Below are positions 1 through 19,053 of a stretch of 64,000 bases of DNA, in pieces; positions within the stretch are counted from its first letter, which is position 1, and the number at the start of each line of letters is the position of its first letter. The translations under genes and the position numbers were made by a program. Source of the stretch: Halobacteroides halobius DSM 5150 (GTDB taxonomy: Bacteria; Bacillota; Halanaerobiia; Halobacteroidales; Halobacteroidaceae); contig NC_019978.1 in assembly GCF_000328625.1 (NCBI RefSeq), forward strand, positions 62,001 to 126,000. The letters run 5' to 3'. The notes under the pieces were generated by a model, which did no database searches, had not been told where the DNA came from, and saw only the letters and a list, made by a program, of their open reading frames with translations.

Positions 1-112
1 TTATACTGAAGAATATCTAACTAGAAGTGAAGCCCAAAAAAGAGAGTATGCTATAAAACAATTAAAGCGGCAAGAGAAGTTAGATTTAATTAAGGAGGAC
101 GGCAATGACTAA
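1..112 (+). CDS. GIY-YIG endonuclease family protein (3' end only)
   Basis: Reading from base 2 gives about 36 residues ending at TAA 110-112. The tail has the form YTEEYLTRSEAQKREYAIK followed by a basic helix, which is the typical C-terminal end of small YazA/YhbQ-type GIY-YIG proteins. The catalytic GIY-YIG half lies outside the window. The stop overlaps the rsmI start by 8 bases, so the two are translationally coupled. The same yazA-rsmI neighbourhood is known in Bacillus, which supports the call. Confidence 0.75.
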   Translation, partial: YTEEYLTRSEAQKREYAIKQLKRQEKLDLIKEDGND

Positions 113-950
113 AGGGACATTGTATATATGTGGTACACCAATTGGTAATTTAAAAGATATTACTTTAAGAGCATTAGATATATTAAAAGAAGTTGATTTA
201 ATTGCTGCTGAAGATACTCGTAGGACAAGCAAGTTACTTAATTATTATGAAATTAAAACTAAGCTAACTAGTTATCATGAGCATAATGCTGATGATAAAA
301 AGAAAGAACTATTAGCTAAATTGGAAACAAATAATGATATAGCTTTGGTTTCAGATGCTGGAATGCCAGGAATTTCAGATCCAGGTTATAAGCTAGTTAA
401 ATTATTAAGAAATGAAGGGATTGAAATTAGAGTAGTCCCCGGGCCAACGGCTATGACTAGTGCTATAGTTAGTTCAGGGTTGCCTACAAATAAATTTAGT
501 TTTGAAGGTTTTTTACCTCGGAAGAAGAGTGAACGGCAAAAATATTTACAGCAATTAAAATCAGAAGAACGAACTATGATCTACTATGAAGCTCCTCATC
601 GTTTAGTTAAAACATTAAAGGATATATTAGATGTTTTAGGTAATCGTAAGATAGCAGTTTGTCGTGAGTTGACAAAGAAATTTGAAGAAGTACTTACAGA
701 GCGAGTTAGCGATTTATTAGATTACTTTAAAAATAATAAACCTCAAGGAGAAATTGTTTTAGTAGTAGAAGGGGGAAATAACGATAAATCTACAGATGAG
801 TGGAAAAGTTTATCCATTTTAGAGCATGTTAAGCAAGAAATGAAAACAGGATTAACTAAGAAAGAAGCAATCAAGGAAGTAGCTAAACTAAGGGAGTTGC
901 CTAAAAGTGAAGTTTATCAAATAGCAACTAAAATTAGAGTTAATAAATAA
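105..950 (+). CDS. rsmI: 16S rRNA (cytidine-1402 2'-O)-methyltransferase RsmI
   Basis: This 281-aa protein is a SAM-dependent tetrapyrrole-methylase-fold enzyme that, in the known family, 2'-O-methylates C1402 in the ribosomal P site. Family hallmarks are visible: GTPIGNLKDIT near residue 10, AEDTRRTSKLL near 36, the PGPTAMTSA loop near 111 and GFLPRK near 136. Length is normal. The ATG overlaps the end of the upstream GIY-YIG gene and is preceded by AAGGAGGA. The gene ends just before a strong hairpin shared with the convergent abrB-type gene. Confidence 0.95.
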   Translation: MTKGTLYICGTPIGNLKDITLRALDILKEVDLIAAEDTRRTSKLLNYYEIKTKLTSYHEHNADDKKKELLAKLETNNDIALVSDAGMPGISDPGYKLVKLLRNEGIEIRVVPGPTAMTSAIVSSGLPTNKFSFEGFLPRKKSERQKYLQQLKSEERTMIYYEAPHRLVKTLKDILDVLGNRKIAVCRELTKKFEEVLTERVSDLLDYFKNNKPQGEIVLVVEGGNNDKSTDEWKSLSILEHVKQEMKTGLTKKEAIKEVAKLRELPKSEVYQIATKIRVNK

Positions 951-980
951 AAGAGAGTGCATGATGCACTCTCTTTTATA
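951..980. terminator. Bidirectional intrinsic terminator between rsmI and the AbrB-type gene
   Basis: A perfect 11-bp stem (951-961 with 965-975) encloses a 3-base loop. It is flanked by A-rich sequence on the left and T-rich sequence on the right. It can terminate the rightward rsmI transcript and the leftward abrB transcript. Confidence 0.85.
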
Positions 981-994
981 ACTGATATCTGTTA

Positions 995-1246
995 TTAAGC
1001 AGAAACAGAATCAGCCATATCTTCTAAACAGTCCGGACAGATATTCTTCCCTTTAAAGTTTTGAATATTTCCAGCGTTACCACAGAAGATACATGCAGGT
1101 TGATATTTTTTAAGGATAATCTTTTCCTCATCGACATAAATCTCCAAAGAATCCTTATTCTCAATATTTAAAGTCCTTCTTAATTCTACAGGAATAACAA
1201 CTCTACCTAGCTCGTCCACCTTACGTACAATACCAGTTGATTTCAT
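995..1246 (-). CDS. abrB: AbrB-family transition-state regulator with C-terminal zinc-ribbon-like tail
   Basis: This 83-aa protein starts at MKSTGIVRKVDELGRVVIP, the swapped-hairpin AbrB DNA-binding domain. A longer frame exists upstream, but the ATG at 1246 has a good AAGGAGG site just before it, so I chose that start. The C-terminal part has CxxC...CxxC (CIFCG and CPDCL), probably binding zinc, in place of the usual AbrB multimerisation domain. Such AbrB proteins occur in clostridia and act as growth-phase or sporulation regulators. Position after rsmI matches Bacillus gene order. Confidence 0.88.
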   Translation of the reverse strand: MKSTGIVRKVDELGRVVIPVELRRTLNIENKDSLEIYVDEEKIILKKYQPACIFCGNAGNIQNFKGKNICPDCLEDMADSVSA

Positions 1247-1326
1247 ATTTATTTCCTCCTTATAAGATTGTAAAATAATATGTTTTTTGGGTTCATATTC
1301 CAGGTTTCGACATTTATTACATTTAA

Positions 1327-1355
1327 ATAATAACACGTATTCCAACAAAAGTCAA
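1327..1355 (-). promoter_or_regulatory. Putative sigma-A promoter of the AbrB-type gene
   Basis: On the minus strand TTGACT (1350-1355) and TATTAT (1327-1332) are separated by 17 bases. They lie about 80 bases upstream of the chosen start codon. Confidence 0.6.
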
Positions 1356-1535
1356 TAGAATGAATAAATTTTATAAAAATATTTTTTTCGACAAATTCCA
1401 TACTAGATTATACCATTATTTTCTTTTTTAGTCAATAATAAATTATCTTTTACATAACAAGGGAAACAATAATTTAAAGCAAAAGATATAAGTAGAGTAT
1501 TGTAAATTGAATTTATCAAATAAGGAGTTGATAAA

Positions 1536-2537
1536 GTGCGTGAATTAAGCTCTGGATTAAAGTCATCATTAGAAAAATTTAATGATAAATTGCAACAAAA
1601 ATATCAAAATAAATCAAATTTAACTGACCAACAATTAAAAAAGTTAATTATTCAGCACCTTGGTGACTTTAAACTGATAGAAGAATTAGCTGGTAAAGAA
1701 CTTAAAGAGTGGACAAAAAACGGGCCAATTGTAGGGGTAGATGGTTCAGTCAATACTACAGGTAAGGTCTATCCTCACTATCTTACTTTATTGCAAGCAT
1801 TAGCTAAAAGTACAACTGAGAAAGAAGTTATTAGACATGAAATTTTTAGTCCGCTAAGTGAAAAAGATAAAGAAAAGATCTTTAGAAAGTTAAGTAAAGA
1901 AGGATTAGATAATGCTCAAGAAGCAGCAGGAAAGATTAAAACATCTTTATTAGCTGCTTTGGAGGTAAAAGTAGCTTACGAGAGTATTAAACAATGTAAT
2001 CCACAATTAATTATGATGGATGGTTCGTTGATTAGATATTATTATCAAGCAGAAGAGTTATGGAAGGAGCTAGTTGATTTAGCATTAGCAGAAGATGTGT
2101 TATTAGTAGGGGTTATAGAAGAAATTGCAACTCATCAAATAAGTAAAAAATTAAAGGAGCAATTACCAGTTCAGATGAAAGAGATGTATGATAGAGAACT
2201 ATTATTTGGTTTGCTAAAGAAAGGTGAGATGTTACAGTTTAAGCCAGGAATTGATTTTAAGCCAGGTTTGGAGACTGTATTTTTAAGAAGTTCTAGTGGA
2301 CCAGGAGTAATAGGCGTAGATATCTTAAAACAACAGGCAAATAAATTAGAATTTATAAATCAAGTGATTTATTCTTTGACCCCTAAAGAAGGTAGAGGAA
2401 TCCCTATATGGCTGGATATGGTTGATGAAGAAGTAAGGATTACTAATAAAATGATGGAGTTGTTATTAAATAATTATTTGGATCCGGCTTTAAAGGAAAG
2501 ACTATTTCATTCCAAGCGTAAGGATAGGATTTATTAA
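1536..2537 (+). CDS. nurA: NurA-domain 5'-3' nuclease
   Basis: This 333-aa protein begins at GTG after AAGGAG. It contains GPIVGVDGSVNTTG near residue 66, which matches the first metal-binding aspartate of the NurA (RNase H-like) nuclease domain, and LIMMDGSLIRYYY near 160 for a further acidic motif. NurA nucleases resect DNA ends together with a HerA hexameric ATPase, usually from an adjacent gene. Here the herA-type gene is the next cellular gene in the same direction, but about 2 kb of IscB element separates them. The function in bacteria is less well studied than in archaea. Confidence 0.85.
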   Translation: MRELSSGLKSSLEKFNDKLQQKYQNKSNLTDQQLKKLIIQHLGDFKLIEELAGKELKEWTKNGPIVGVDGSVNTTGKVYPHYLTLLQALAKSTTEKEVIRHEIFSPLSEKDKEKIFRKLSKEGLDNAQEAAGKIKTSLLAALEVKVAYESIKQCNPQLIMMDGSLIRYYYQAEELWKELVDLALAEDVLLVGVIEEIATHQISKKLKEQLPVQMKEMYDRELLFGLLKKGEMLQFKPGIDFKPGLETVFLRSSSGPGVIGVDILKQQANKLEFINQVIYSLTPKEGRGIPIWLDMVDEEVRITNKMMELLLNNYLDPALKERLFHSKRKDRIY

Positions 2538-2570
2538 TTATTTGTAATCAAGCAATAGTGATATTAAGAG

Positions 2571-2686
2571 CAATTGACAATGGACAATGAACAATTTACA
2601 ATTAAACTTCAAAATCGTATAAACCCTTGATTTAGAAAGGTTTTAATGGGTTCTAATTGTCAATTGTTAATTGTAAATTAAAAGTG
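2571..2686. repeat. Palindromic AATTGACAAT-type intergenic repeat (MITE-like)
   Basis: An imperfect 20-bp inverted repeat (2584-2603 with 2655-2674, two mismatches) is made of AACAATTTACAATT-type units and encloses about 50 bases that can fold further (AACCC with GGGTT). Both arms contain internal ATTGTCAATT repeats. It resembles short non-coding interspersed repeats seen in low-GC Firmicutes. It lies between the nurA stop and the putative omega-RNA, and could be part of the inserted element or an older neighbour. Confidence 0.5.
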
Positions 2687-2704
2687 AAGCTTTATATCAA
2701 TTAA

Positions 2705-3190
2705 GTTTTAGTTTCTAAACTAACCTAACTTATAAGGAGCTATGAAACAGCTTATAAAATCCTAACTAATGCTATTTAAAGTTAGGTAAAACTGTTTCGT
2801 TGCTTTCAAGGTTAAGGGAGTGTAGAGGATAGAAATATCCTTAGCACAATGCTCTATGTTATTTGGTCAAAGAGTCTTTTAACTCTACAAGGCTTATTAT
2901 CACACCCTCGGATGTATCCTATCAGTCTTAGGTCGCAGGCAGAGCCTTGCTCTGTAAACTGCTCTGTGGTGTCAAGGAAGAACGCTTACCTAAGTTCTTA
3001 TAGAATACCTAACACCAAAGACACTTTAAGCCCCATTTGACATTGCCTATAGCAGGGTATTTACATACCCTAGCTATTGACTACATCTGGGAACTATAAC
3101 CAATGGTTATGTTCGCCAATGTACTTTAAGAGCAAGAATCTATATGATTCTGCGACAAAGAAGGGAAGTTCCCATTATGGAGGTGGCAGA
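2705..3190 (+). ncRNA. Putative omega-RNA (HEARO-like) of the IscB element
   Basis: This roughly 490-base stretch has no convincing gene and is rich in stems. CCTAACTT (2723-2730) pairs with AAGTTAGG (2779-2786). AGGATA/TATCCT (2826-2841) closes a GAAA loop. CAAGGCT pairs with AGCCTTG across about 55 bases. AGGGTAT/ATACCCT forms a hairpin at 3051-3075, and GAATC/GATTC another near 3135-3149. It runs right up to the iscB ribosome site, where HEARO/omega-RNA genes of IscB elements are known to lie. The last part (GTTCGCCAATG, then TTCTGCGACAAAG) looks like HEARO from memory. The 5' end, and therefore the guide, is not defined by sequence alone. Confidence 0.62.
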
Positions 3191-3191
3191 G

Positions 3192-4451
3192 ATGCCAAAC
3201 AAATATGCTTTTGTATTAGATAGTAAGGGCAAGCTACTTGATCCTACTAAAAGTAAAAAAGCATGGTATTTAATTAGAAAGGGTAAAGCTAGTTTAGTAG
3301 AAGAATATCCACTTATTATTAAGCTAAAAAGAGAAGTACCTAAAGACCAAGTTAATAGTGATAAGCTAATTTTAGGAATTGATGATGGTACTAAAAAGGT
3401 AGGGTTTGCTTTAGTACAGAAGTGTCAAACTAAAAATAAAGTTCTATTTAAAGCAGTAATGGAGCAACGTCAAGATGTATCTAAAAAGATGGAAGAACGT
3501 AGAGGTTATCGTAGGTATAGACGTTCTCATAAGAGATATAGACCTGCTAGATTTGATAATCGTTCCTCTAGCAAGAGAAAAGGTCGAATACCACCTAGCA
3601 TACTCCAAAAGAAACAAGCTATTTTAAGAGTAGTAAATAAATTAAAGAAGTACATTAGAATAGATAAGATAGTTTTAGAAGATGTATCAATTGATATTCG
3701 TAAATTAACAGAAGGTAGAGAACTTTATAATTGGGAGTATCAAGAGTCTAATCGACTTGATGAAAATTTAAGAAAAGCTACGCTATATCGTGATGATTGT
3801 ACTTGTCAATTATGCGGTACTACTGAAACTATGCTACACGCCCACCACATCATGCCTAGACGAGATGGTGGAGCAGATAGTATATATAATCTAATTACCT
3901 TATGTAAAGCTTGTCATAAAGATAAAGTAGATAATAATGAGTATCAGTATAAAGACCAATTTTTAGCTATTATTGACAGTAAAGAACTATCTGACTTAAA
4001 ATCAGCAAGTCATGTTATGCAAGGTAAGACTTGGTTAAGAGATAAATTATCTAAAATAGCTCAACTAGAAATTACATCAGGTGGTAATACTGCTAATAAA
4101 CGGATTGACTATGAGATAGAAAAAAGTCATAGTAATGATGCTATTTGTACTACTGGACTATTACCTGTTGATAATATTGATGATATTAAAGAGTATTATA
4201 TTAAACCTCTTAGAAAGAAGTCTAAGGCTAAAATTAAAGAATTAAAATGTTTTAGACAGCGAGATTTAGTTAAATATACTAAGAGAAATGGTGAAACTTA
4301 TACAGGCTATATTACTTCATTAAGAATTAAGAATAATAAATATAATTCTAAAGTCTGTAATTTCTCAACTTTAAAAGGTAAGATTTTTCGAGGTTATGGA
4401 TTTAGAAATTTAACTCTATTAAATAGACCTAAAGGTCTAATGATTGTTTAA
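3192..4451 (+). CDS. iscB: IscB RNA-guided nuclease (RuvC with HNH insertion)
   Basis: The start ATG at 3192 sits 5 bases after GGAGGTGG, giving 419 aa. An N-terminal PLMP-type domain (FVLDSKGKLLDP) is followed by RuvC-I LGIDDGTKKVG (D64), an Arg-rich bridge helix at 102-121 (RRGYRRYRRSHKRYRPARF), RuvC-II IVLEDVSID (E163), an HNH with CxxC (205, 208), HAHHI (216-220) and C238/C241, and RuvC-III KSHSNDAIC (H313, D316). No REC lobe is present, as expected for IscB, the ancestor of Cas9. All catalytic residues appear intact. In this family the protein is guided by an RNA encoded just upstream; such a region is present. No transposase gene is adjacent. The element lies between nurA and herA. Confidence 0.93.
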   Translation: MPNKYAFVLDSKGKLLDPTKSKKAWYLIRKGKASLVEEYPLIIKLKREVPKDQVNSDKLILGIDDGTKKVGFALVQKCQTKNKVLFKAVMEQRQDVSKKMEERRGYRRYRRSHKRYRPARFDNRSSSKRKGRIPPSILQKKQAILRVVNKLKKYIRIDKIVLEDVSIDIRKLTEGRELYNWEYQESNRLDENLRKATLYRDDCTCQLCGTTETMLHAHHIMPRRDGGADSIYNLITLCKACHKDKVDNNEYQYKDQFLAIIDSKELSDLKSASHVMQGKTWLRDKLSKIAQLEITSGGNTANKRIDYEIEKSHSNDAICTTGLLPVDNIDDIKEYYIKPLRKKSKAKIKELKCFRQRDLVKYTKRNGETYTGYITSLRIKNNKYNSKVCNFSTLKGKIFRGYGFRNLTLLNRPKGLMIV

Positions 4452-4481
4452 TAAGTATTTTTAAAAAGGGGGTGTATCTGT

Positions 4482-4519
4482 TTATAAACCTATAAGTAGT
4501 TTTAAATAGGTTTTTATAA
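4482..4519 (+). repeat. Hairpin at the probable right end of the IscB element
   Basis: AAACCTAT (4486-4493) pairs with ATAGGTTT (4506-4513), with possible extension into flanking TATA-rich bases. It lies 30 bases after the iscB stop and just before the herA start. Terminal hairpins of this kind are typical of IS200/IS605-group ends, so it may mark the right boundary. No target duplication is expected for such elements, and none was seen. Confidence 0.4.
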
Positions 4520-4531
4520 GCAGGCAAAAAG

Positions 4532-6379
4532 ATGCAAGTAGTAGGTTTAACTAATCAACAAGAAGTTTATGTAGCTTCTAAAGAACATAAATTTAGAATT
4601 AATGAAATGTTAAAGATAATGGATGGGACTTTAGATAATCCTTTAGGAGAGGTAATTGAAACCCAATCTTATAACCGTTATATTCCTTTATCAATTGATA
4701 ATAGTTTTGTAGATCAAGGAGTAATTGATTCATTAGAAAGTATAGGGTATAATATAGCTGAAGACGAAATTAATATTGCTAAGGTCAGATTATTAGAGGA
4801 AGCACCTTATCCAATTCAAACTGGTTCAATTGTAGAGACACCAGAATTTAGTGAAGTAAAAGAACTATTGATTAAAGAAGAACCACAAGATGGTTTAGTT
4901 TTAGGAGTGATTAAAGGAACAGAAGAGTTAGCTACAGGAATGGATAATAATTTAGAGGGTATTGCACCATTGCTAGAAGGAGATGAGGTAGTAGAACAAC
5001 AGGGTGTACCTTTTAACTTTAAGGTTAAGGCTATGCATCAGTATCCCCATGTAGGAATTATTGGTGGTTCAGGGTCAGGTAAATCATTTGGAATGAGGGT
5101 TATTTTAGAAGAAATGATGAAGTTAGAGATTCCAACTATTGTATTTGACCCCCATTTTGAGATGGATTTTAGTAATCCATTTCCGGGATTAGATAATAAA
5201 GATCAAAGTGAATTTGATAGTAAATTTGTCCAATATCAAATTGGTTATGATGTAGGAGTTAACTTTGAGGATCTATCAACCAAAGATCTATTAGATCTAT
5301 TGGCTGCAGCTGATAGTTTAACTAACTCAATGGTTAATGCTGTACAAAAGTTACACCAAAAGAATGATAGCTTACTTAGTTTTAAAGGCAGGTTAGATGA
5401 TTTAAAAACAGCCCAAGAGATAGGTAAGAAAAGAATTGAACGTGATTTAAAGAATGGAGCAGTAAGTGGAATAAAAAAGCAAGAGTATGAGGCCTACCAA
5501 GAATTATTGGATGCCTATGGAGATTTGCCTGCTAGTTCAGTTAATGGTTTAAGCTGGAGGTTAGGGCGTTTAGAGAGAGAAGGATTGTTTAGTCAAAGTA
5601 TTGATCAGATTGAAGCAGCAATTCGAGGTAGAAAATTGGTTGTAATTCAAGGGCCAATCTGGCTACTACAGGTTTTTGCTACTTATGTACTAGGAACTTT
5701 ATATCGTAAACGTCGTGATTATAAGGATGCTCAGTATAGACAACAAACGGCTGATTATTTTCCACCTTTTGTAATAGCAACAGATGAAGCTCATAACTTT
5801 GCTCCTAAAGGACAAGATGCTCCAGCCAATAAGATTATTAAGGAGATATCCCAAGAAGGTAGAAAGTATGGAACTTTCTTGATTTTAGCAACACAAAGAC
5901 CCACTTTGTTAAATGAAACTGTTACAGCACAGTTAAATACAAAGTTTGTCTTTAGAACAGTTAGAGCTACAGATATTGAGACGATTAAGCAAGAAACTGA
6001 TTTGACAGCTGAGGAAGCAAAAAGGCTACCTTATTTACGTTCAGGAGATACTTTTGTTTCTTCTGCAATTTTTGGAAGGACATTATCAGTTAGGATTAGA
6101 GTTGCTAAGACAACAAGTCCTCATACCGAAAATCCTTTTGATGAGTTAGAAGCTAAAACTAAAGAAAAAGATGATGAGTTATATCAAGCAATTTTTAATA
6201 GTTTACCAATTGATAGTATCAATATTTTATCTAAATTAGAAGAGATTAATGAACAACTACCTACTACTCTTGATCGGGAAAATTTATTAGAGCAGTTGGA
6301 TAAATTAGCTGAGAAAGGAAGAGTTGAGAAAAAAGCTTCTCCTTTAGGGGATCAAATTTATCAAAGAGCTTGTGAATAA
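4532..6379 (+). CDS. herA: HerA-type FtsK/HerA-superfamily ATPase (DUF87)
   Basis: This is a 615-aa protein. The N-terminal 160 residues resemble the HerA barrel domain. Walker A is GGSGSGKS at 178-185, followed by FDPHFEMDF. Walker B with DEAH lies at 418-421, followed by a sensor-like ATQRPT segment. HerA ATPases form hexamers that pump DNA and activate NurA nuclease. The partner nurA gene is upstream but separated by the IscB element. The start ATG has only a weak ribosome site (GCAGGC), unlike most genes here, which may result from the insertion. Confidence 0.85.
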   Translation: MQVVGLTNQQEVYVASKEHKFRINEMLKIMDGTLDNPLGEVIETQSYNRYIPLSIDNSFVDQGVIDSLESIGYNIAEDEINIAKVRLLEEAPYPIQTGSIVETPEFSEVKELLIKEEPQDGLVLGVIKGTEELATGMDNNLEGIAPLLEGDEVVEQQGVPFNFKVKAMHQYPHVGIIGGSGSGKSFGMRVILEEMMKLEIPTIVFDPHFEMDFSNPFPGLDNKDQSEFDSKFVQYQIGYDVGVNFEDLSTKDLLDLLAAADSLTNSMVNAVQKLHQKNDSLLSFKGRLDDLKTAQEIGKKRIERDLKNGAVSGIKKQEYEAYQELLDAYGDLPASSVNGLSWRLGRLEREGLFSQSIDQIEAAIRGRKLVVIQGPIWLLQVFATYVLGTLYRKRRDYKDAQYRQQTADYFPPFVIATDEAHNFAPKGQDAPANKIIKEISQEGRKYGTFLILATQRPTLLNETVTAQLNTKFVFRTVRATDIETIKQETDLTAEEAKRLPYLRSGDTFVSSAIFGRTLSVRIRVAKTTSPHTENPFDELEAKTKEKDDELYQAIFNSLPIDSINILSKLEEINEQLPTTLDRENLLEQLDKLAEKGRVEKKASPLGDQIYQRACE

Positions 6380-6445
6380 ATTCGAGAATAAAGAGGACTT
6401 TCAGTACTATTGTTGAATATCTTATGTTTGTAGGGAGGAATATTT

Positions 6446-7693
6446 ATGAAAGAAAAAATAAAAAACTTGTTTAAATTTTCATTTAGTCTAAAGTTTAAGT
6501 TTGTGTTGGCTGTGGTCTTTTCTTTATTGGTTGGCCCGATTGTTGCTAAATATCTAAATGGTCTAGTACAAAAGCATATTTATACTGGTTATTTATCTGG
6601 ATATTTATCAAATGTTATTAATGTAATAGTTGTCACTGGAGTTATTTTGTTTTTAACTAGACGACTAATTATTGCTCCAGTAGAAGAAGTAATAGATATA
6701 ATTGAAGGATTAGCTAAAGGGGATCTAGATAGGGAGACTATTACTGTAAGTCGAAATGATGAAATTGGTTTATTACAAACTGAAGTAAATAATATGATCA
6801 AGAATATGAATGATATGTTAGAAAAAATTGATCAAACTACTCAACAAGTAGAAAAGGTTAGCTCTGATTTGGCCGTTGCTTCTGAAGAAAGTGGTCAGAT
6901 GGCTACTCAAGCTGCAAGTGCTATCCAACAAGTAGCAAGTGGTTCAGAAAATCATGTTAAATTAATTAATGATTTAAAGAAGGAAGTACAAGAAGTTAAT
7001 GGTGATCGTGATCAAACAGATTTAACTTCAGTTAAGGATATTTCAGAGGCTGCTAAAGAAGGGACAGAGTTAGTTGATGAGGCTGTAGATACAATGCAAC
7101 AAGTTAATCAACGGATTAATCAATCAGCGGATACAGTAGAACGTTTAAATGATTTTACTACAGAGATTAGTCAGTTTGTTGATGTAATTACTAATATAGC
7201 TGAACAGACTAATCTATTAGCACTCAATGCTAGCATTGAGGCAGCTAGGGCTGGAGAGCATGGACAAGGCTTTGCTGTGGTAGCAGAAGAGATTAGAGAG
7301 TTAGCTGTAGAATCTAATGGTGCCGCTGATGATATTGTAGGATTAATTAATCGTATGCGACAACAATCAAAGAATACTGTAGAAGAAATGAAAGTAGGAA
7401 GAGAACAAGCAAATATTGGATTAAAAATTATAAATCAGGCTGATGAGATGTTTATGAGTATTAGAAATAGAGTTGATAAGTTAGATTCAGTTCTAGATAA
7501 GCTTGCTTCTTCTACAGAAGAAATGGCCAGTTTTACTGAAGAAGTCTCAGCCTCTGCTCAGGAAGTAGCTAGTGTTAGTGAAGAGCAGTCAGCTGAAGCT
7601 CAACAGACTGCAGCTATAGCAGACCAATTAGAGATAATAGTAGATGATCTGCATAAACTAGTTGTAAAGGATATAGATTTATATCAGGAGTAG
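6446..7693 (+). CDS. Methyl-accepting chemotaxis protein without large extracytoplasmic sensor
   Basis: This 415-aa protein has two hydrophobic segments (about residues 18-37 and 52-72) with only about 15 residues between them, so almost nothing is exposed outside the membrane. A HAMP domain follows ([19 protein letters not shown]...NDEIG), then a long coiled coil with the conserved receptor tip [19 protein letters not shown] and [13 protein letters not shown], where CheA/CheW bind. The signal is probably sensed in the membrane or through HAMP, or relayed by a partner. No chemotaxis genes are adjacent. SD AGGGAGGA precedes the ATG. Confidence 0.9.
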
Positions 7694-7697
7694 CTTC

Positions 7698-7726
7698 TTG
7701 ACAAAATAGTTATTCTTTTGTATATT
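7698..7726 (+). promoter_or_regulatory. Sigma-A promoter of the metG T-box leader
   Basis: TTGACA (7698-7703) and TATATT (7721-7726) are separated by 17 bases. They start just after the chemoreceptor stop codon and precede the T-box leader. Confidence 0.7.
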
Positions 7727-7779
7727 TTTAAGTATAGTTTATATAATAGATAATGAGATAATTTTAATATAGGATTAAA

Positions 7780-8006
7780 TGCTTTGCAAGGAAGAGTAAA
7801 TATTTAAACTAGCTACAGAGAACTAGGAGGAGCTGAGAACCTAGGTTAGTAAGAATATTGAAGATGGTCCTTAAGCTATATAGTTGAACTAGTAGTAGAC
7901 TATATCGGTTAGCTATCGTTAATAGCCTCAAAGTAGTCATCTAACGAGATGATAAATAGGGTGGTACCGCGACCTCTCGCCCCTAGCAGGGTGAGGGGAT
8001 TTTTTA
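7780..8006 (+). promoter_or_regulatory. T-box leader (probably tRNA-Met responsive) with terminator, upstream of metG
   Basis: The canonical T-box sequence AGGGTGGTACCGCG is at about 7958-7971, followed by an intrinsic terminator (CCTCTCGCCCCT with AGGGTGAGGGG, then T6). The upstream stem I region (about 7785-7880) has an AGAGAACTAGGAGGA core and GAAGATGGTCC, in which ATG (7864-7866) is the plausible specifier codon. Uncharged tRNA-Met would pair with the specifier and T-box and favour the antiterminator, raising metG expression when methionine charging falls. Confidence 0.93.
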
Positions 8007-8030
8007 ATTATAAAACTAGGGGGGTTAATA

Positions 8031-9971
8031 ATGAGTAAAGATACTTTTTATGTTACAACACCGATTTATTATCCAAATGATAAGCTGCATATAGGACATA
8101 CATATACAACTACTGCAGCAGATACAATTATTAAGTTTAAAGAATTACAAGGCTATGAAACTGAGTTTATTACTGGATCAGATGAGCATGGTCAGAAATT
8201 ACAACAAGCAGCTCAAGAACATGGCATGGAGCCTCTAGAGTATATTGATGGCATTGTTACGAGTTTTAAAGATCTTTGGGCCAAGCTTAAAGTTGATTAT
8301 ACTGAATTTGTGCGAACTACTACTCCAGAACATAAAGAGGATGTTCAATATATCTTTAAAAAACTTTATGATAAAGGCGATATCTATAAGGATAAGTACG
8401 AGGGATATTATTGTACTCCTTGTGAGACTTTTTGGAAAGAACGAGAGTTAAATGAAAATGATAACTGCCCAGATTGTGATCGAGATGTAGAGTGGATGGA
8501 AGAAGAGAGCTACTTTTTTAAAATGTCCAAGTATGAGGATCAGCTACTAGACTTTCTAGATTCTAATCCTGACTTTATTCAGCCAAGTAAACGGCGTAGT
8601 GAAATGATTAATTTTATTAAAGATGGGCTAGAAGATTTATGTGTTTCACGAGCTAGTTTTGATTGGGGGGTTCCAGTACCTGTTGATGATGAGCATGTTA
8701 TTTATGTTTGGTTTGATGCTTTAATTAGTTATCTAACAGGGATTGATTTTCAGCGTAATCAAGATAAATTCAATGATTATTGGCCTGCTGATATTCATAT
8801 TGTAGGTAAGGATATCTTACGTTTCCATACAATCATTTGGCCCTCTATTTTAATGGCAGCTGATATGCCACTACCTAAGCAGGTATTTGGACATGGTTTC
8901 TTACTTGTTGAAGGTGGTAAGATGTCTAAGTCTAAAGGAAATGTGATTGATCCTGTTAAGCTAATTGATGACTTTGGTGTTGATGCCGTTAGATATTATC
9001 TATTACGAGAGATTGCTTTTGGTACAGATGGTTCTTATTCAACAGAGTCTTTTATCCAACGAATTAACTCTGATTTAGCTAATGATTTAGGCAATTTATT
9101 AAATAGAACAGTAGCTATGGTAGAGAAGTATTTTGATGGTCAAATTCCAGTTGGTAAAGTAGAGACAGATTATGATGCAGATTTAGAGAGTGTAGCCCAA
9201 GATGCTTTTGCTAGGATTGAAGAAAACCTGGAACAATTACAGTTTAGTACAGCTTTAGAAGAGTTGTGGAGATTGATTAGAAGAACTAATAAGTATATTG
9301 ATCAGACCAAACCTTGGGTTTTAGCTAAGGATGATAGCAAACGTGATAAATTAGGAAGAGTACTATACAACCTAATGGATAATTTAAGAAGAATTGCTAT
9401 CTCACTAGTACCATTCTTACCAGAAGCTCCAGCTAAGATGTGGAAACAGATTGGAATTAAAGAAGATTTAGCAGATCAAACGTGGGAAGATGTTAAGACA
9501 AAAGGTGGACTAGAAGCTGGACTAGAAATTAATAAAGGAGCACCAATCTTTCCCAGAATCGATATTGAAGAGTATTATGCTAATTTAGAGGCAGAAGATA
9601 CAAAAGCAGTAGCAGATAAGGAGGAAGAAGAAATGACAGAACAAGATTATATTAGTTTTGATGAATTTGGTCAATTGGATTTAAGAGTTGCTGAAGTTCT
9701 AGAGGTAGAAAAGATAGAAGGTAGTGATAAGTTACTTAAGGTTCAAGTAGAGTTAGGAGCAGAAAAGAGACAATTAGTAGCGGGTATTTCTAAGCATTAT
9801 CAACCGGATGAATTAACAGGCAAAAAGATAGTTATGATAGCTAATATGGAGCCAGCAACTATTTTTGGAGTTGAATCTAATGGAATGATTTTAGCGGCTT
9901 CTAATGATGAAGGAGATTTAACAGTAACTACTGTAGATCGAGATATTGCTAGTGGCGCTAAAGTAAAATAG
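8031..9971 (+). CDS. metG: Methionine-tRNA ligase with C-terminal tRNA-binding domain
   Basis: This 646-aa class I synthetase charges tRNA-Met. Visible motifs are HIGHTYTTTA near residue 21, a zinc knuckle CTPC...CPDC near 128-147, and KMSKSKGN near 300. The last 110 residues form the EMAP/Trbp111-like OB fold (DEFGQLDLRVAEVLEVEKI to the end), which aids dimerisation and tRNA binding. The enzyme is of the long bacterial MetG2 type. It is controlled by the T-box leader just upstream and followed 11 bases later by tatD. Confidence 0.97.
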   Translation: MSKDTFYVTTPIYYPNDKLHIGHTYTTTAADTIIKFKELQGYETEFITGSDEHGQKLQQAAQEHGMEPLEYIDGIVTSFKDLWAKLKVDYTEFVRTTTPEHKEDVQYIFKKLYDKGDIYKDKYEGYYCTPCETFWKERELNENDNCPDCDRDVEWMEEESYFFKMSKYEDQLLDFLDSNPDFIQPSKRRSEMINFIKDGLEDLCVSRASFDWGVPVPVDDEHVIYVWFDALISYLTGIDFQRNQDKFNDYWPADIHIVGKDILRFHTIIWPSILMAADMPLPKQVFGHGFLLVEGGKMSKSKGNVIDPVKLIDDFGVDAVRYYLLREIAFGTDGSYSTESFIQRINSDLANDLGNLLNRTVAMVEKYFDGQIPVGKVETDYDADLESVAQDAFARIEENLEQLQFSTALEELWRLIRRTNKYIDQTKPWVLAKDDSKRDKLGRVLYNLMDNLRRIAISLVPFLPEAPAKMWKQIGIKEDLADQTWEDVKTKGGLEAGLEINKGAPIFPRIDIEEYYANLEAEDTKAVADKEEEEMTEQDYISFDEFGQLDLRVAEVLEVEKIEGSDKLLKVQVELGAEKRQLVAGISKHYQPDELTGKKIVMIANMEPATIFGVESNGMILAASNDEGDLTVTTVDRDIASGAKVK

Positions 9972-9982
9972 GTGGTGGAAAA

Positions 9983-10747
9983 ATGTTAATTGATACACAT
10001 GCTCATCTTGATTTTCCTAGATTTGATAATGATCGAGATAAGGTAATTCTGGATGCTTATCGAGCAGGAATTAAGCAAGTTATTAATGTAGGAGCCGACA
10101 TGAAATCAAGTCGTAATTCAGTGGAATTAGCTCAAGAATATAATTTTATTGTAGCTAGTGTAGGAGTTCATCCTCATGAGGCCAAAAGTTTTACAGACCA
10201 AGATTATCAAGAACTAAAAAATTTAGCTAGTCAAAATGAAGTAGTTGCTATTGGTGAGATGGGATTAGATTATCACTATGATAATTCGCCCCGACAGGAG
10301 CAACAAGAAGCATTTAGAAAACAATTACAGTTGGCCCAAGAGGTTGATCTACCAGTTATAATTCATAGTCGTGAAGCACAAGAAGATACACTCAAGATTC
10401 TAAAAGAAGAAGCAACTAATCTAGAAGGTGTATTACATTGTTTTGCTTACGATTTAGAAGTAGCCCGTGAAGTTATTGATTTAGGATTTTATGTGGCTTT
10501 AGGAGGCGTATTAACTTTCGGTAGTGCCAAAGATTTAAGAATGGTAGTGCCTAATTTATCTTTAGATAGAATACTAATAGAGACGGATGCGCCCTACTTA
10601 ACACCTGAGCCACATCGTGGAGAACGAAATGAGCCTAAGTATGTTAAAGAAGTAGCTAAAAAGATAGCAAAATTAAAGAACACTAATCTAGAAGCAGTAG
10701 CTAAGCAAACTACTAAAAACGCAAAGAAATTATTTAAGTTAGACTAA
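9983..10747 (+). CDS. tatD: TatD-family metal-dependent hydrolase/DNase
   Basis: This 254-aa TIM-barrel amidohydrolase shows the TatD signature set: DTHAHLDF at the start, GVHPHEA near 60, GEMGLDYHYD near 89, HSREA near 128, HCF near 153 and ETDAPYLTPEPHRG near 200. These provide the two-metal ligands. TatD proteins degrade DNA and damaged ends, with a role in DNA quality control. It lies in the metG operon, matching the metS-yabD order of Bacillus. Confidence 0.95.
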   Translation: MLIDTHAHLDFPRFDNDRDKVILDAYRAGIKQVINVGADMKSSRNSVELAQEYNFIVASVGVHPHEAKSFTDQDYQELKNLASQNEVVAIGEMGLDYHYDNSPRQEQQEAFRKQLQLAQEVDLPVIIHSREAQEDTLKILKEEATNLEGVLHCFAYDLEVAREVIDLGFYVALGGVLTFGSAKDLRMVVPNLSLDRILIETDAPYLTPEPHRGERNEPKYVKEVAKKIAKLKNTNLEAVAKQTTKNAKKLFKLD

Positions 10748-10754
10748 TAAAATT

Positions 10755-10792
10755 GTACTAATTGCTATTTAGCAATTAGTACTTTATTTTTA
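10755..10792 (+). terminator. Intrinsic terminator after tatD
   Basis: A perfect 12-bp stem GTACTAATTGCT/AGCAATTAGTAC (10755-10766 with 10771-10782) and ATTT loop are followed by a T-rich run. It separates tatD from the radical SAM gene. Confidence 0.8.
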
Positions 10793-10824
10793 TAGAACTG
10801 TGAATCTCTAAAGGAGGCGTTAAA

Positions 10825-11403
10825 GTGACTATTACTTATCAATTAGGCGATAAATTATATATCAATTTAACTAATCGTTGTAGTAATGACTGTAAATTTT
10901 GCGTCAGAAATTTTAAAGATGGAGTAGGAGGATATGACTTATGGCTTGAGGAAGAGCCTTCAGTTACAGAAGTAATAGCTGAATTTGATGATGTTAGTAA
11001 ATATGGAGAGGTAGTATTTTGTGGCTATGGCGAGCCACTAACAAGAGTTGCTGCTGTAGTGGAGATTAGTCAGTACTTACAAGATAACTACCCTGATACT
11101 TTAGTAAGGGTTAATACCAATGGGCAAGCTAATTTAATTCATAGAGGGAATATCTTACCTAGGTTACAAGGAAAGATTGATATAATTTCAATTAGTTTAA
11201 ATGCTTCTAATGCTACTAAATACCAAGAGATTTGTCAATCAGATTTTGGTGTAGAGTCTTTTACAGCAGTAGTTGATTTTATTAAGCAGGCCAAAAAGGT
11301 AATTCCTAAGGTAATTGTATCAGTCGTTAGTAGTTCTAATATTGATTTAGAAGCTTGCAGGGATTTAGCTTCTCAGTTAGAGGTAGAATTTAGAATTCGT
11401 TAG
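10825..11403 (+). CDS. TatD-associated radical SAM protein
   Basis: This short (192 aa) radical SAM protein starts at GTG after AAGGAGG. The cluster-binding CxxxCxxC motif is CSNDCKFC near residues 18-25, followed by FCGYGEPL-type GGE equivalents. A small family of radical SAM proteins is found repeatedly beside tatD; length, motif and location fit it. The substrate and reaction are not known. A possible link to repair or modification products handled by TatD is inference only. Confidence 0.85.
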   Translation: MTITYQLGDKLYINLTNRCSNDCKFCVRNFKDGVGGYDLWLEEEPSVTEVIAEFDDVSKYGEVVFCGYGEPLTRVAAVVEISQYLQDNYPDTLVRVNTNGQANLIHRGNILPRLQGKIDIISISLNASNATKYQEICQSDFGVESFTAVVDFIKQAKKVIPKVIVSVVSSSNIDLEACRDLASQLEVEFRIR

Positions 11404-11748
11404 ATTTTAAATTAATTTAAAAAAGAAGGAGGAATTTTCTCTAAAGCGTAGAATTAATATTATAACAGATGCAATCGTTTGCATTTATATTATAATTTAA
11501 TAAGAATAGTCTTAAATTAGTTTAAAATGCAGATGATATATGTTATAATAAATTTAGTAAGAAATAAGTCAATAATAAAATTAGAGAATAAGTTAATAAT
11601 TTTATAAGGGAAGTATTTTATTTTTTAATTGTGGAATCGCTTGCACTAAGTAACTTAAGGTAGTTTCCTCAATAATTTTATAATTACATAAGATGGGGAA
11701 TTGAGTTGGTTATTATTTAGAATTTAAAAATTTGAGGGGGGACTATCA
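11404..11748 (+). promoter_or_regulatory. Regulatory region with two LacI-type operators before the sugar ABC operon
   Basis: There is no gene in this 345-base stretch. Two near-palindromes with a central CG, typical of LacI-family binding, are present: ATGCAATCGTTTGCAT (11469-11484) and GTGGAATCGCTTGCAC (11631-11646), with centres about 162 bp apart. TATAAT-like boxes follow at 11491-11496, 11544-11549 and 11679-11684, but a unique promoter cannot be assigned. The spacing would allow repression by looping. The cognate regulator is probably the lacI-type gene at 15093. Confidence 0.65.
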
Positions 11749-13059
11749 ATGAAAAAAAGATTTAGTGTTGTATTGATTGCTATTCTAGCTTTATCTTTAG
11801 TCGTAGTCGGGTGTGGCTCCAATAAGGAAGCAGCACCTAAAAAGGACACAGAAGAAAAAGCAGTTGCTTTAGATAAAAGAGAATTATCTAAGCAAGTGAC
11901 TATTAAGTTTTGGGAGAAAGAATCAGTAAAATTTGATAAAAAGACAATGACGCCTTTAATCAAGAAGTTTGAAAAGAAATATCCTAATATTAATGTTGAT
12001 CGAACTCATATGGGGATTGAGGATTTAAGAAAGAATACTCAAACTGCTTATATGGGTGGTAAGGGTCCAGATGTAGTATGGAGTCCTTTTGATCACATTG
12101 GCCCATTTTCTGCAATGGGAATTGCGCAACCATTAGATAAGTTAATGAGTGATGAGCTAAAGAATCGTTATATTGATTCTGCACTACCAGGTATGAGCTT
12201 AAAAGGTAATGTTTATGGTGTGCCAGTTACTATGGGTAATCACTTAATGTTATATTATAACAAAGATTTAGTTAACCAAGTGCCTAAGACTTGGGAAGAA
12301 TTAATTAAAATAGCTAAAAAAGCAACTAAGGATACAACTGGTGACGGGAAAACTGATCAGTATGGCTTAGTATATAATTCAGCTGAACCATTCTGGTGGG
12401 TTGTATTTCACGGTGGTTTTGGAGGTTGGGTCTTTGATAAAGAATATAATCCAACTTTAGATACCAAAGCAACTAAGCAAGCTATGCAATTTGTACATGA
12501 CTTAGAATTTGAACACAAGATTATTCCTAAAGAGTGTGGATATAATGTAGCTGATAGTCTATTTAAAAAAGGAAAAGCTGCTTTTATTATTAATGGAGTG
12601 TGGGCTCTAAATGGTTATACCGAAAGTGAAAAGATTGATGCTGGCGTAGCTGTCTTACCTAAGTTTGAGGCAACAGGTAAGTATGCTCAGCCAATGACTA
12701 GTGGAGCTGGCTTAATTATGATGTCTGGTTTACCAGAGGCTAAACAGATTGCTGTTATGAAATTCATTAAGTTCATGACTAGTCAAGAAGCTCAGAAGAC
12801 AATTGTTAAGCATCATAAACGATTACCAAGTAATAAGGTAGTTTATGATTTACCAGTTATTAAAAATAATCCAGTAATGAAAGTATCTGGAGAGCAGTTA
12901 AGAAAAGGTAGAGCTATGCCTGTAGTTCCAGAGATGAGAGCTGTTTGGGATGCTATTCGACCAGCTTTACAAAGTGTAATGAGTGGAGATTTAGCACCAG
13001 CTAAGGCACCAGCTAAGATTCAAGAAACTGCTGAAAAGAAAATTAAACAGATGAAATAG
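11749..13059 (+). CDS. Sugar ABC transporter substrate-binding lipoprotein
   Basis: This 436-aa family-1 solute-binding protein (MalE-like) has a signal peptide ending in a lipobox VVGC with Cys22, so it is a lipid-anchored receptor. The mature part has the usual fold signatures: KFWEKESVKFD, PLIKKFEKKYPNI, the central TWEELIKIAKKAT region and a C-terminal hinge helix. It delivers an oligosaccharide (maltodextrin-like, not certain) to the permeases encoded next. A strong hairpin follows the gene, probably making this product more abundant than the permeases. SD GAGGGGGG precedes the ATG. Confidence 0.9.
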   Translation: MKKRFSVVLIAILALSLVVVGCGSNKEAAPKKDTEEKAVALDKRELSKQVTIKFWEKESVKFDKKTMTPLIKKFEKKYPNINVDRTHMGIEDLRKNTQTAYMGGKGPDVVWSPFDHIGPFSAMGIAQPLDKLMSDELKNRYIDSALPGMSLKGNVYGVPVTMGNHLMLYYNKDLVNQVPKTWEELIKIAKKATKDTTGDGKTDQYGLVYNSAEPFWWVVFHGGFGGWVFDKEYNPTLDTKATKQAMQFVHDLEFEHKIIPKECGYNVADSLFKKGKAAFIINGVWALNGYTESEKIDAGVAVLPKFEATGKYAQPMTSGAGLIMMSGLPEAKQIAVMKFIKFMTSQEAQKTIVKHHKRLPSNKVVYDLPVIKNNPVMKVSGEQLRKGRAMPVVPEMRAVWDAIRPALQSVMSGDLAPAKAPAKIQETAEKKIKQMK

Positions 13060-13070
13060 TAAAGTAATAA

Positions 13071-13097
13071 AAGATGGGGAATATGCCCCATCTTTTT
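13071..13097 (+). terminator. Intercistronic hairpin/terminator between binding protein and permease genes
   Basis: A perfect 9-bp stem AAGATGGGG/CCCCATCTT with a 6-base loop is followed by TTTTTATT. Since permease genes continue in the same direction without a clear new promoter, it is likely a leaky terminator or 3' stabiliser that sets the ratio of binding protein to permease. Confidence 0.75.
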
Positions 13098-13123
13098 ATT
13101 AAGATAGTAAAGGGGGAGTTTGG

Positions 13124-14059
13124 ATGAGTGCTGAAGTTCAGAAGCAAGATAATGGTATTTTAAATTTTTCCTTAAGTGAATTTTGGGAAAAGAATAGATT
13201 TGCTTATTTAATGTTACTACCAGCCTTTATTGGAGTATTCTTTGTTATTATTTATCCTTTCTTTTATAATTTAAAGTTAGCATTTTCAGATTTAAATATG
13301 TATAGTATGCGAGCATTTATTAAGAATGGTACTTTAAATTATATCGGATTTAAGAACTTTGTTGAAGTTGTAACTACTAGTGATTTTTGGACTGTATTTG
13401 GAAGAACAATAGTTTGGACAGTAGTCAATGTTGCTTGCCACGTTGGATTTGGGATTCTTCTTGCTATTTTATTAGATAGAGATATGAAGTTAAAAGGAAT
13501 TTATCGGACTTTATTAGTTATTCCTTGGGCTATTCCCCAATATATTGTAATTTTAGTCTGGAAGGGTATGTTTAATTATCGGTTTGGTGCTATTAACTTA
13601 ATGTTAAATAAGTTAGGTTTTGAGTCTATTGCTTGGTTAAGTGATCCTACAACTGGATTTTTAGCTGCAATTATAGTTAATGTTTGGCTAGGAATTCCTT
13701 TTATGATGATGATTGCTTTAGGTGGATTACAAAGTATTGATCCTAACTATTATGAAGCAGCAGAGATTGATGGAGCTAGCAATTGGCAACAGGTAAAGAA
13801 TGTTACACTGCCGCTGCTAAAGCCTGTTATGATTCCAGCAGTTATCTTAGGGGTTGTCTGGACATTTAAGAATTTAAAAGTAATCTTTATGTTAACAGCA
13901 GGAACTTTAACAGGAAAAATTGATATTTTAGTAACTTATGTTTATAAAGCAGCCTTCACTTATTACCGTTATGGGTATGCTGCAGCATTTTCATTTGTGA
14001 TTTTCTTGATCTTATTAATCTGGAGTATAATCTTTATTGAACATCTTAGAGAAGAGTAG
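13124..14059 (+). CDS. Sugar ABC transporter permease, MalF-type
   Basis: This 311-aa membrane protein has about six transmembrane helices. The cytoplasmic EAA loop near residues 205-220 reads EAAEIDGASNWQQVKNVTLPLL, the contact with the ATPase. The N-terminus is longer than minimal MalF-like permeases but lacks a large periplasmic loop. It forms a heterodimer with the next permease. The ATPase gene is absent from the window, so a shared MsmX/UgpC-type ATPase encoded elsewhere is likely. Confidence 0.92.
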   Translation: MSAEVQKQDNGILNFSLSEFWEKNRFAYLMLLPAFIGVFFVIIYPFFYNLKLAFSDLNMYSMRAFIKNGTLNYIGFKNFVEVVTTSDFWTVFGRTIVWTVVNVACHVGFGILLAILLDRDMKLKGIYRTLLVIPWAIPQYIVILVWKGMFNYRFGAINLMLNKLGFESIAWLSDPTTGFLAAIIVNVWLGIPFMMMIALGGLQSIDPNYYEAAEIDGASNWQQVKNVTLPLLKPVMIPAVILGVVWTFKNLKVIFMLTAGTLTGKIDILVTYVYKAAFTYYRYGYAAAFSFVIFLILLIWSIIFIEHLREE

Positions 14060-14071
14060 GGGGGATTTAAA

Positions 14072-14947
14072 ATGTCAGTTAAAAAAGATAGTAAACTAAA
14101 GAGATTTATTATTCATTTTATATTATTAGTTTCAGTAGCACTTGCTCTTTATCCAGCTCTACGAGTATTTGGAATTTCTCTGCGGCCTACTAGTGCACTT
14201 CATACCAGTAGTATCGGGATTATTCCTGACAATCCAACTCTAGAGGCTTACAAAACTATATTATTTGAAAAGCCATTTTTAACTTGGTTAAAGAACAGTT
14301 TATTGGTTACAGTATTTACAGTAATTATTGGAGTAAGCTTAGCTACTACTGCAGGTTATGCTTTTTCTCGTAAAAAGTTTACTGGACGAAAAGCAGGGTT
14401 AACTTTCTTTTTAGTTACTCAAATGTTTCCAGCTACGATGTTAATTTTACCGATGTATCTATTATTAGCTCAATTTGGGTTAACTTCTCAAGAAATAATT
14501 ATTCCTTTTATTGGTCTGTCTAAAGTTCATCTAGCTTTAATAATTATGTATTCTACTACTGCTTTACCACTTTGTGTTTGGCAGATGAAAGGTTATTATG
14601 ATACAATTCCGGGTAGTTTGGAGGAAGCTGCTTTAGTTGATGGTTTAAATCAATTCCAGGCTTTTTATAAGATTATTTTACCGTTAGCTAAGCCAGCTTT
14701 AGTAATTACTGCTTTATTCTCTTTTATGACAGCTTGGAATGAATTTATGGTAGCTCGAATTTTAATGACGGATAGTAATTTATATACTCTACCAGTAGGT
14801 CTGAGAAATTTAGCATCTCAGTTTAATACCCAATGGGCCAACTTTGCTGCTGCGTCAGTATTGATTATGGTCCCAGTAATGGCGGTTTTTCTCATATTAT
14901 CCCGCTATTTAGTTGGTGGATTAACATTAGGAGGAGTAAAAGGATAA
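14072..14947 (+). CDS. Sugar ABC transporter permease, MalG-type
   Basis: This 291-aa integral membrane protein has about six helices and an EAA loop EEAALVDGLNQFQAFYKIILPL near residue 190. It is the second permease half of the importer and starts 12 bases after the first one, behind a GGGGGGA ribosome site. The C-terminal YLVGGLTLGGVKG is typical for MalG-like permeases. An intrinsic terminator follows. Confidence 0.93.
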   Translation: MSVKKDSKLKRFIIHFILLVSVALALYPALRVFGISLRPTSALHTSSIGIIPDNPTLEAYKTILFEKPFLTWLKNSLLVTVFTVIIGVSLATTAGYAFSRKKFTGRKAGLTFFLVTQMFPATMLILPMYLLLAQFGLTSQEIIIPFIGLSKVHLALIIMYSTTALPLCVWQMKGYYDTIPGSLEEAALVDGLNQFQAFYKIILPLAKPALVITALFSFMTAWNEFMVARILMTDSNLYTLPVGLRNLASQFNTQWANFAAASVLIMVPVMAVFLILSRYLVGGLTLGGVKG

Positions 14948-14958
14948 TCGATAATCAA

Positions 14959-14988
14959 GTCATAGGCTTTTGGTCTATGGCTTTTTTC
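14959..14988 (+). terminator. Intrinsic terminator after the permease gene
   Basis: The stem GTCATAG/CTATGGC (one G-T pair) is followed by TTTTTT. It ends the importer operon before the regulator gene. Confidence 0.7.
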
Positions 14989-15092
14989 TTTGTTTAGTTA
15001 TTGATTTAGTTAGTTTATTCAATTATAGTAATTAAAGAAAGTACTCTTAAAAGTAAAATAATTTTTAATAAATAATGGGAAGGAAGATAGTT

Positions 15093-16115
15093 ATGCCAAC
15101 AATCAAGGATGTGGCAAAGAAAGCAGGTGTTTCTCCTTCAACAGTTTCTAGGGTAGTTAATAATCACCCACGGATTAGTCAAGAAACCAGAGAGGAAGTT
15201 TTGCAGGCAATGGATGAAATAGGCTATCATCCTAATGTTATTGCTCAAAATTTAGTTAATCAAACGACCAATACATTAGGGTTAGTAATGGCCCCTTCTA
15301 CTGAGGAAGCTTTTGCAGACCCTTTTTATGCCGAAGTCTTACGAGGAATTGGTTCGATGGCTCAAAAAAATGGTTACAGTTTATTATTAATTACCGGTGA
15401 TGAAGAGGGAGGAGAGTTAGAGGCTACCTTAAGAGCAGTTAGAGGAAAGCAGGTGGATGGTCTATTGTTATTAAGGGCCAAAAAAAGTGATAAGTTAACT
15501 GATAAATTAAACGAGATGAACTTTCCTTTTGTAGTAGTAGGAAGACCTGAAGAAGAAGATAAAAATTATTGGGTTAATAATGATAATGTACAGTCTAGTA
15601 AGGAGTTAGTTGAATATTTAATCAATTTAGGGCATAATAAAATAGGAGCATTTATTGGTAGTGAAGAATATATAGTTGATCAGGATCGATTAAAAGGATA
15701 TAAATTAGCTCTTAAGTCCCACGGGATTGATTATAATCAAGATTATATAGTACAAATCGAAAGTGGTAAACAAGAAAAAGCTTATCGATTTACTAAAGAT
15801 CTACTCAATTCTTATCCTGAACTGACTGCTTTATATGGTATTGATGATCGGATAGCTTATGGAGCAATCAAAGCAGTTAAGGAGTTAGGCTTTAAAATTC
15901 CTGAAGATATAGCTATAGTTGGGTTTAATAATAATCCTTTATCAGAATTAATTGAACCTGCTTTAACTACTGTTGATATTAACACTTATGAATTAGGAAG
16001 AAAGGCAACTAGTTTGTTAATTCAAGTAATTACAGAACAAGTAACTAGTTATTGTAATGATATAGTACCAACTGATTTAATTGTTAGAGAGTCTTGTGGT
16101 GGTAAGAATGATTAA
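15093..16115 (+). CDS. LacI-family transcriptional regulator (sugar importer operon)
   Basis: This 340-aa repressor has an N-terminal helix-turn-helix with hinge helix (TIKDVAKKAGVSPSTVSRVV, then NVIAQNLVN), followed by a periplasmic-binding-protein-like sugar domain (GLVMAPSTEE..., VDGLLLLR, IVGFNNNPLSELIEPALTT). I chose ATG 15093, which follows GGAAGGAAG; an in-frame ATG lies 18 bases upstream. It probably controls the preceding ABC operon through operators at 11469 and 11631. The stop codon overlaps the rnmV start (ATGATTAA), so a sugar-responsive gene is coupled to a housekeeping rRNA gene. Confidence 0.9.
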   Translation: MPTIKDVAKKAGVSPSTVSRVVNNHPRISQETREEVLQAMDEIGYHPNVIAQNLVNQTTNTLGLVMAPSTEEAFADPFYAEVLRGIGSMAQKNGYSLLLITGDEEGGELEATLRAVRGKQVDGLLLLRAKKSDKLTDKLNEMNFPFVVVGRPEEEDKNYWVNNDNVQSSKELVEYLINLGHNKIGAFIGSEEYIVDQDRLKGYKLALKSHGIDYNQDYIVQIESGKQEKAYRFTKDLLNSYPELTALYGIDDRIAYGAIKAVKELGFKIPEDIAIVGFNNNPLSELIEPALTTVDINTYELGRKATSLLIQVITEQVTSYCNDIVPTDLIVRESCGGKND

Positions 16116-17509: not shown

Positions 17510-17629
17510 GTTAATTGCTATATGTAGAGTTTCCCCATTTTTTCAAAAATAATAAATTAGAACTTATTGATAATAAAATTGTGGATAACTTTTGGTAAAA
17601 CAGATAGTAACTGCTCTAAAATAAAAAAA

Positions 17630-17698
17630 GGTGAAATGAACTCCTAAATTTGGTATAATTAGTTTGGCAACCAAAACCAAATAGGAGGTCATTTCACC
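17630..17698 (+). promoter_or_regulatory. Long inverted repeat hiding the transposase ribosome site
   Basis: GGTGAAATGAACTCCTA (17630-17646) is complementary to the bases 17682-17698 with one mismatch. The right arm contains the AGGAGG ribosome site just before the transposase ATG at 17699. Transcripts reading in from outside would fold and block translation, whereas a TATAAT lies inside the loop. This is a known self-limiting arrangement in insertion sequences. Confidence 0.6.
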
Positions 17699-18966: not shown

Positions 18967-19024
18967 TAGCAATGTTGGCTTGCTGGTATTATAATTTTGG
19001 GGAAACTCTATATTGCTATATATA

Positions 19025-19053
19025 TTGACAGAGTAATATTTTTCTGGTATAAT
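19025..19053 (+). promoter_or_regulatory. Consensus sigma-A promoter of veg
   Basis: TTGACA (19025-19030) and TATAAT (19048-19053) are separated by exactly 17 bases, a perfect consensus. A second candidate (TTGCAA 19062-19067, 17 bases, TATAAT 19085-19090) lies downstream. veg promoters are known to be very strong in Bacillus. Confidence 0.85.

Follow-up and report, generated by a model that had tools for sequence, protein, structure and literature searches.

Between nurA and herA in Halobacteroides halobius DSM 5150 lies a gene for IscB, an RNA-guided nuclease that is a relative of the Cas9 ancestor. We analyzed this locus within a stretch of 64,000 nucleotides ("the window"), which is part of the single contig of this organism's 2.65 Mb genome. 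Judging from the sequence, positions 2738-4524 of the window are very probably an IscB (OMEGA) homing or retention element from a branch of the family that targets Shine-Dalgarno sites. IscB would be found between nurA and herA only because this branch inserts at ribosome-binding sites between the genes of operons, and herA would be merely one available site.

Insertion at Shine-Dalgarno sites

We examined the junctions of 39 related elements, which come from both chromosomes and viral contigs. Wherever the sequence is available, the left flank ends in GG, and in most of the elements it ends in AAGG. The right ends rejoin AAGG or AGG. In 38 of the 39 elements, a co-directional gene begins beyond the right end, with its start codon at a distance of 5-17 nt. 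As a background, a start codon is found within 22 nt of about 23% of the WAGG sites in these flanks. Also, the stop codon of an upstream co-directional gene is usually close by (from 59 nt before to 12 nt after the joint in 30/34 cases). If the flanks are rejoined, they form an ordinary operon junction with a stop codon, a Shine-Dalgarno sequence, and an ATG, for instance ttaaataagg^AGGAATTTATG. A mechanical scan that is free of any choice of boundary found the next start codon 42-78 nt after the iscB stop codon in 30 distinct loci. Large scans of genome families added few new members, and a search of plasmids for IscB relatives at E = 1e-40 found none.

In eight elements, including three from H. 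halobius (copies A, B, and E, where A is the copy in the window), the right end has a GGAGG-like sequence and, after it, a stretch that can form a hairpin, followed by 5-7 nt and an ATG. Six of these eight have a clear hairpin, while that of L131 and L137 is weak. The window's hairpin folds at -14.4 kcal/mol (z = -1.2), and the same shape is seen in copies B and E and in L140, L071, and L144. This hairpin may bring the Shine-Dalgarno sequence next to the downstream start codon, which is that of herA in copy A. IS200/IS605 insertion sequences cause no target duplication, insert beside a fixed short motif, and have hairpins near their ends; in our elements, the AAGG motif and end hairpins are seen, but a 4-nt overlap blurs the exact joint.

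Close homologs of the element are found in staphylococcal Herelleviridae, and near-identical phages lack the insertion. For two phage insertions, the empty site directly shows an intact Shine-Dalgarno junction. First, JDF86 has the element and phiSA_BS1 is empty, and their flanks are 99.1-99.8% identical: phiSA_BS1 reads CAACCTATAAAGGAGAAAAGACTATTATGG, and JDF86 has ...TATAAAGG next to ACTTACT... and ...AGGAGGAGAAAAGACTATTATGG. Second, Golestan101-M has the element while PSU4 and RSM-J51Sa are empty, and the comparison with PSU4 gives GACAGTAAGG^GGATACTTG. The predicted guide (at least 16 nt to the left of the element) is identical in the empty phage alleles. The third pair is VL10/MRSA21 (L109, L111) and the empty LSA2308/Romulus. 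As a separate observation, the end of the VL10/MRSA21 element seems to provide a replacement start for a resolvase gene.

We propose that the element inserts where a ribosome-binding site separates two co-directional genes, after the AAGG, and that its right end restores AAGG or AGG, so that both neighbors would stay intact and the element would be an extra cistron of the operon. The operon's transcript would supply the omegaRNA, and the flanking host sequence would be its guide; in most cases, this guide would combine the 3' end of the preceding gene with the Shine-Dalgarno sequence. Alleles without the element would then be cut by IscB and would acquire it through recombination (homing or retention). 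Copies without iscB would be satellites whose RNAs would be served in trans. For a first insertion at any new site, a transposase would be required.

The element and its copies in H. halobius

The gene order nurA-iscB-herA is confirmed. The three genes lie intact on the + strand, within an ordinary run of housekeeping genes. The sequence-only reading of this DNA had given the element the whole gap between nurA and herA (2538-4531). It does lie there, but the element proper is smaller (about 2738-4524), and 2555-2722 is a separate repeat. The features of the locus are:

1536-2537, + strand: nurA, the host gene upstream of the element; intact, 333 aa; Pfam PF09376 (NurA) at 1.9e-22, covering profile positions 3-254 of 254.
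2555-2722, no strand: palindromic interspersed repeat, separate from the IscB element; the genome has about 12 copies with good conservation (83-95% identity), along with many partial copies.
2714-2737, + strand: predicted guide-encoding flank, tctaaactaacctaacttataagg, which ends in the Shine-Dalgarno core AAGG left from the target site.
2738-3191, + strand: omegaRNA (HEARO-like) scaffold region, conserved in six copies and 23 relatives, with covariation.
3192-4451, + strand: iscB, 419 aa, with intact RuvC and HNH residues; 3192 is the likely start, and the longest open reading frame runs from 3144 (3144-4451).
4452-4524, + strand: right end, AGGGGGTG and then a 3' hairpin (CTGTTTATAAACCTAT...ATAGGTTTTTATAAGCAG) ending in AGG; this boundary is common to copies B and E.
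4525-4531, + strand: right flank CAAAAAG, which reaches the ATG of herA; when rejoined, the two flanks read ...TTATAAGG^CAAAAAGATG.
4532-6379, + strand: herA, intact, 615 aa; Pfam DUF87 at 2e-17; orthologs in 12 relatives are 69-77% identical.

We placed the guide flank by the start of conservation among the copies, the start of the HEARO model in a homolog, and the target logic of the empty phage sites. The palindromic repeat has many matches in the genome, several of them on both strands, and several relatives (L036, L040, L041) also have loosely similar palindromes between nurA and herA. We rejected the possibility of a group I intron or IStron: an Rfam scan of positions 1-20000 of the window yields only a T-box leader (RF00230, at 7775-7987, before a methionyl-tRNA synthetase-like gene).

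We compared 12 relatives from the same family or the same order that have a HerA ortholog. In 11 of the 12, nurA is directly upstream of herA, with gaps of 12-509 nt and no IscB between them, which implies that the element is a secondary insertion in this lineage. This comparison had been suggested from the sequence alone, and its outcome agrees with the idea that a simple IscB insertion splits the pair. The twelfth relative has no nurA in the stretch examined around herA. No base-exact empty nurA-herA site was found among the 12, which are all too distant.

The genome contains six copies of the element, three with iscB and three with the omegaRNA only. Their sites are as follows, with gene names that we assigned by reading the translations:

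Copy A: nurA-herA.
Copy B: an aminotransferase gene; the element starts at its stop codon.
Copy E: the last codons of rsmE.
Copy C: nusG-rplK; no iscB.
Copy D: accA-pfkA; no iscB.
Copy F: spoIVA-hup; no iscB.

All six are co-directional with both neighboring genes, and none of the five other copies is near repair genes. The likeness among the copies begins exactly at AAGGAGCTATG. Over 1366 bp, copies A and B share 98.5% identity; the other two iscB genes are 98% and 78% identical to the window's iscB, and iscB is open in all three full copies. The iscB-less elements share a right end (G000:C1:183359, 407287, and 1603530 for nusG-rplK, accA-pfkA, and spoIVA-hup). Their rejoined flanks, gctaattaagg^AGGAAATAGAATG, ttattaagtagg^AGGTTGATTGTAATG, and aaagtataaag^AGGTATGACCAATG, follow the same junction rule. 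These elements are candidate trans-acting guide RNAs. There is also a short remnant at G000:C1:2504804-2504902 with matches to both ends of the omegaRNA elements.

Conservation of the nuclease and the omegaRNA

The window's IscB matches NCBIfam's guided_IscB (NF040563) with 317 bits (E = 1.1e-94), which is above the curated cut-off of 175, and residues 20-394 match the solved HfmIscB (PDB 9k2z; E = 6.1e-129). The best Cas9 model (NF049971) scores far under its cut-off. The protein shares with HfmIscB and the IscB-OMEGA family the order of domains (a PLMP-like N-terminus, the RuvC pieces, an arginine-rich bridge, and HNH) and the catalytic residues, and about half of ~375 aligned residues are identical. 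In an alignment of 11 IscBs, D64, E163, H218/H219, H313, N315, and D316 (numbered from Met-3192) are invariant. The sequence-only view of an intact IscB with RuvC and HNH residues thus stands, as careful alignment reveals no loss of catalytic residues. In the literature that we searched, we found no account of the target site of HfmIscB or of any relation to ribosome-binding sites.

A structured RNA upstream of iscB had also been proposed, and covariation bears this out: among 23 related upstream regions, 31 of the 38 consensus pairs show double-sided compensatory changes. The scaffold begins at the left end of the element, next to the variable guide flank, and has a P1 stem (GAAACAG / CTGTTTC) at its 5' end. 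Rfam gave no match to the window's RNA up to E = 1. In the homologous region of the staphylococcal phage MRSA21, HEARO (RF02033) matches over its full length (E = 3.8e-6), with a score of 36.7 bits that does not reach the gathering score of 83. The first position of the HEARO model aligns at the left end of the MRSA21 element, which supports the host flank as the guide. As with HEARO, the RNA lies upstream of an HNH open reading frame, and one relative matches the model end to end from the left end. Unlike HEARO, the RNA of the window, which the model does not match, contains additional inserted segments, and its variable 5' hairpins are longer. A segment of ~115 nt with three small hairpins (roughly 3048-3160) lies in the 3' part of the omegaRNA region. 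It is found in copies A, C, D, and E, is missing from B and F, and has no solo copies elsewhere.

Alternative explanations and known systems

Several points weigh against our interpretation. The formal P value for the start-codon rule (2.5e-23) is overstated because we placed the right boundary at the Shine-Dalgarno sequence, and this boundary is ambiguous by about 4 nt. In VL10/MRSA21, the element has entered the first codons of a gene for a RusA-like resolvase (AAAAAAGG^TGATG), an exception to the strict rule; because this site is inside the start of a gene, the motif is better described as AAGG-like than as strictly Shine-Dalgarno. In copy A, the palindromic repeat lies between nurA and the element, so its guide would be intergenic sequence and not nurA sequence. 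A phylogenetic tree sets our branch apart from nine other IscBs with 100/100 support, which speaks for the interpretation, but the monophyly of the branch is partly due to sampling its members by similarity. Finally, a search for a Y1 transposase (PF01797) found none in the element or in the host genome. The near identity of copies A and B implies that they moved recently, for which our interpretation does not account.

The alternative that we take most seriously, and which we consider somewhat less probable than not, is that the enzyme needs just a short AAGG anywhere. Insertions that break genes would be lost, and purifying selection would account for the position at Shine-Dalgarno sequences. 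An AAGG-like motif is present at most of the junctions, VL10 has an insertion within the start of a gene, and right ends with hairpins fail to rejoin the full AAGGAG, all of which fit this explanation. On the other hand, nearly all of the curated elements (38 of 39) are followed by a co-directional gene with its start codon 5-17 nt from the right end, far above the background for WAGG sites, and a bare AAGG would also predict insertions that are antisense or between convergent genes.

It is unlikely that the element is a defective remnant that has lost its transposase and is currently inactive, with its nuclease kept by drift. The lack of a Y1 transposase in the genome, the iscB-less copies, and the degraded copies of the element in relatives (L072, L085) would be expected for a remnant. 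In contrast, the invariant catalytic residues, the RNA pairs kept by compensatory changes, the near identity of copies A and B, and the three full copies with open iscB are not. PF01797 was found in 11 of the 12 relatives, and the host genome encodes three TnpB-type proteins. We also considered the tnpA behind the truncated iscB of L141 (G011:C1, 2100-4017) as a possible part of the element and rejected it, as it appears to belong to an IS605-type tnpA-tnpB insertion that is nested and decayed.

The sequence-only reading had also raised the idea of a host-serving RNA-guided nuclease that hands its breaks to NurA-HerA for resection, which is highly improbable: adjacency speaks for it, but the other copies lie beside nusG, accA, spoIVA, rsmE, and the aminotransferase gene, the elements of relatives lie beside other genes (no related element that we examined flanks nurA or herA), and the Shine-Dalgarno rule explains the position. 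Functional coupling of the element to NurA-HerA is not supported.

The proposed homing at Shine-Dalgarno sites can also be set beside known systems. We used canonical IscB/IsrB elements from plasmids as controls. They too carry the guide at the scaffold's 5' end, and several also lie just before a co-directional gene. Unlike the elements of our branch, they have GTCAACTACCC-like left ends, and where a gene is close, the right flank is often ATGA-like instead of AAGG or a Shine-Dalgarno sequence. These ATGA-like flanks agree with the NTGA target-adjacent motif reported for DtIsrB (PMC9581776). In the tree, the controls group separately from our branch with full support, an outcome that sampling by similarity favors. 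Among worked examples, the one nearest to the proposed benefit is the retention or gene drive of IS200/IS605 elements by TnpB (PMC11870625). The proposed logic is alike: a guide that records the site directs the nuclease to cut empty copies, and the element is then copied by recombination. The differences are that the nuclease is another one and that here the guide is at the 5' end, the element has no transposase gene, and the genome has no Y1 transposase. A literature search of titles and abstracts, plus one full paper, found no report of an IscB that targets Shine-Dalgarno sequences; the key primary IscB papers were outside its reach, so the novelty is provisional.

The interesting part is the broader pattern: a branch of IscB that is found at Shine-Dalgarno sites, accompanied by satellites and by empty sites in phages. 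We consider it about evenly balanced whether the whole of this picture is correct, namely that the branch uses the Shine-Dalgarno sequence as both its RNA-guided and its insertional target, joins operons harmlessly, derives its guides from host-gene 3' ends, spreads by RNA-guided homing (including in phages), and serves iscB-less satellites in trans. The natural pairs of phages with and without the element are material for testing RNA-guided homing by crosses. If our interpretation is true, the targets and guides of this IscB branch are predictable straight from genomes, and the branch shows how a genetic parasite can spare its host by targeting the motif of a safe intergenic gap, which is rebuilt on both sides.
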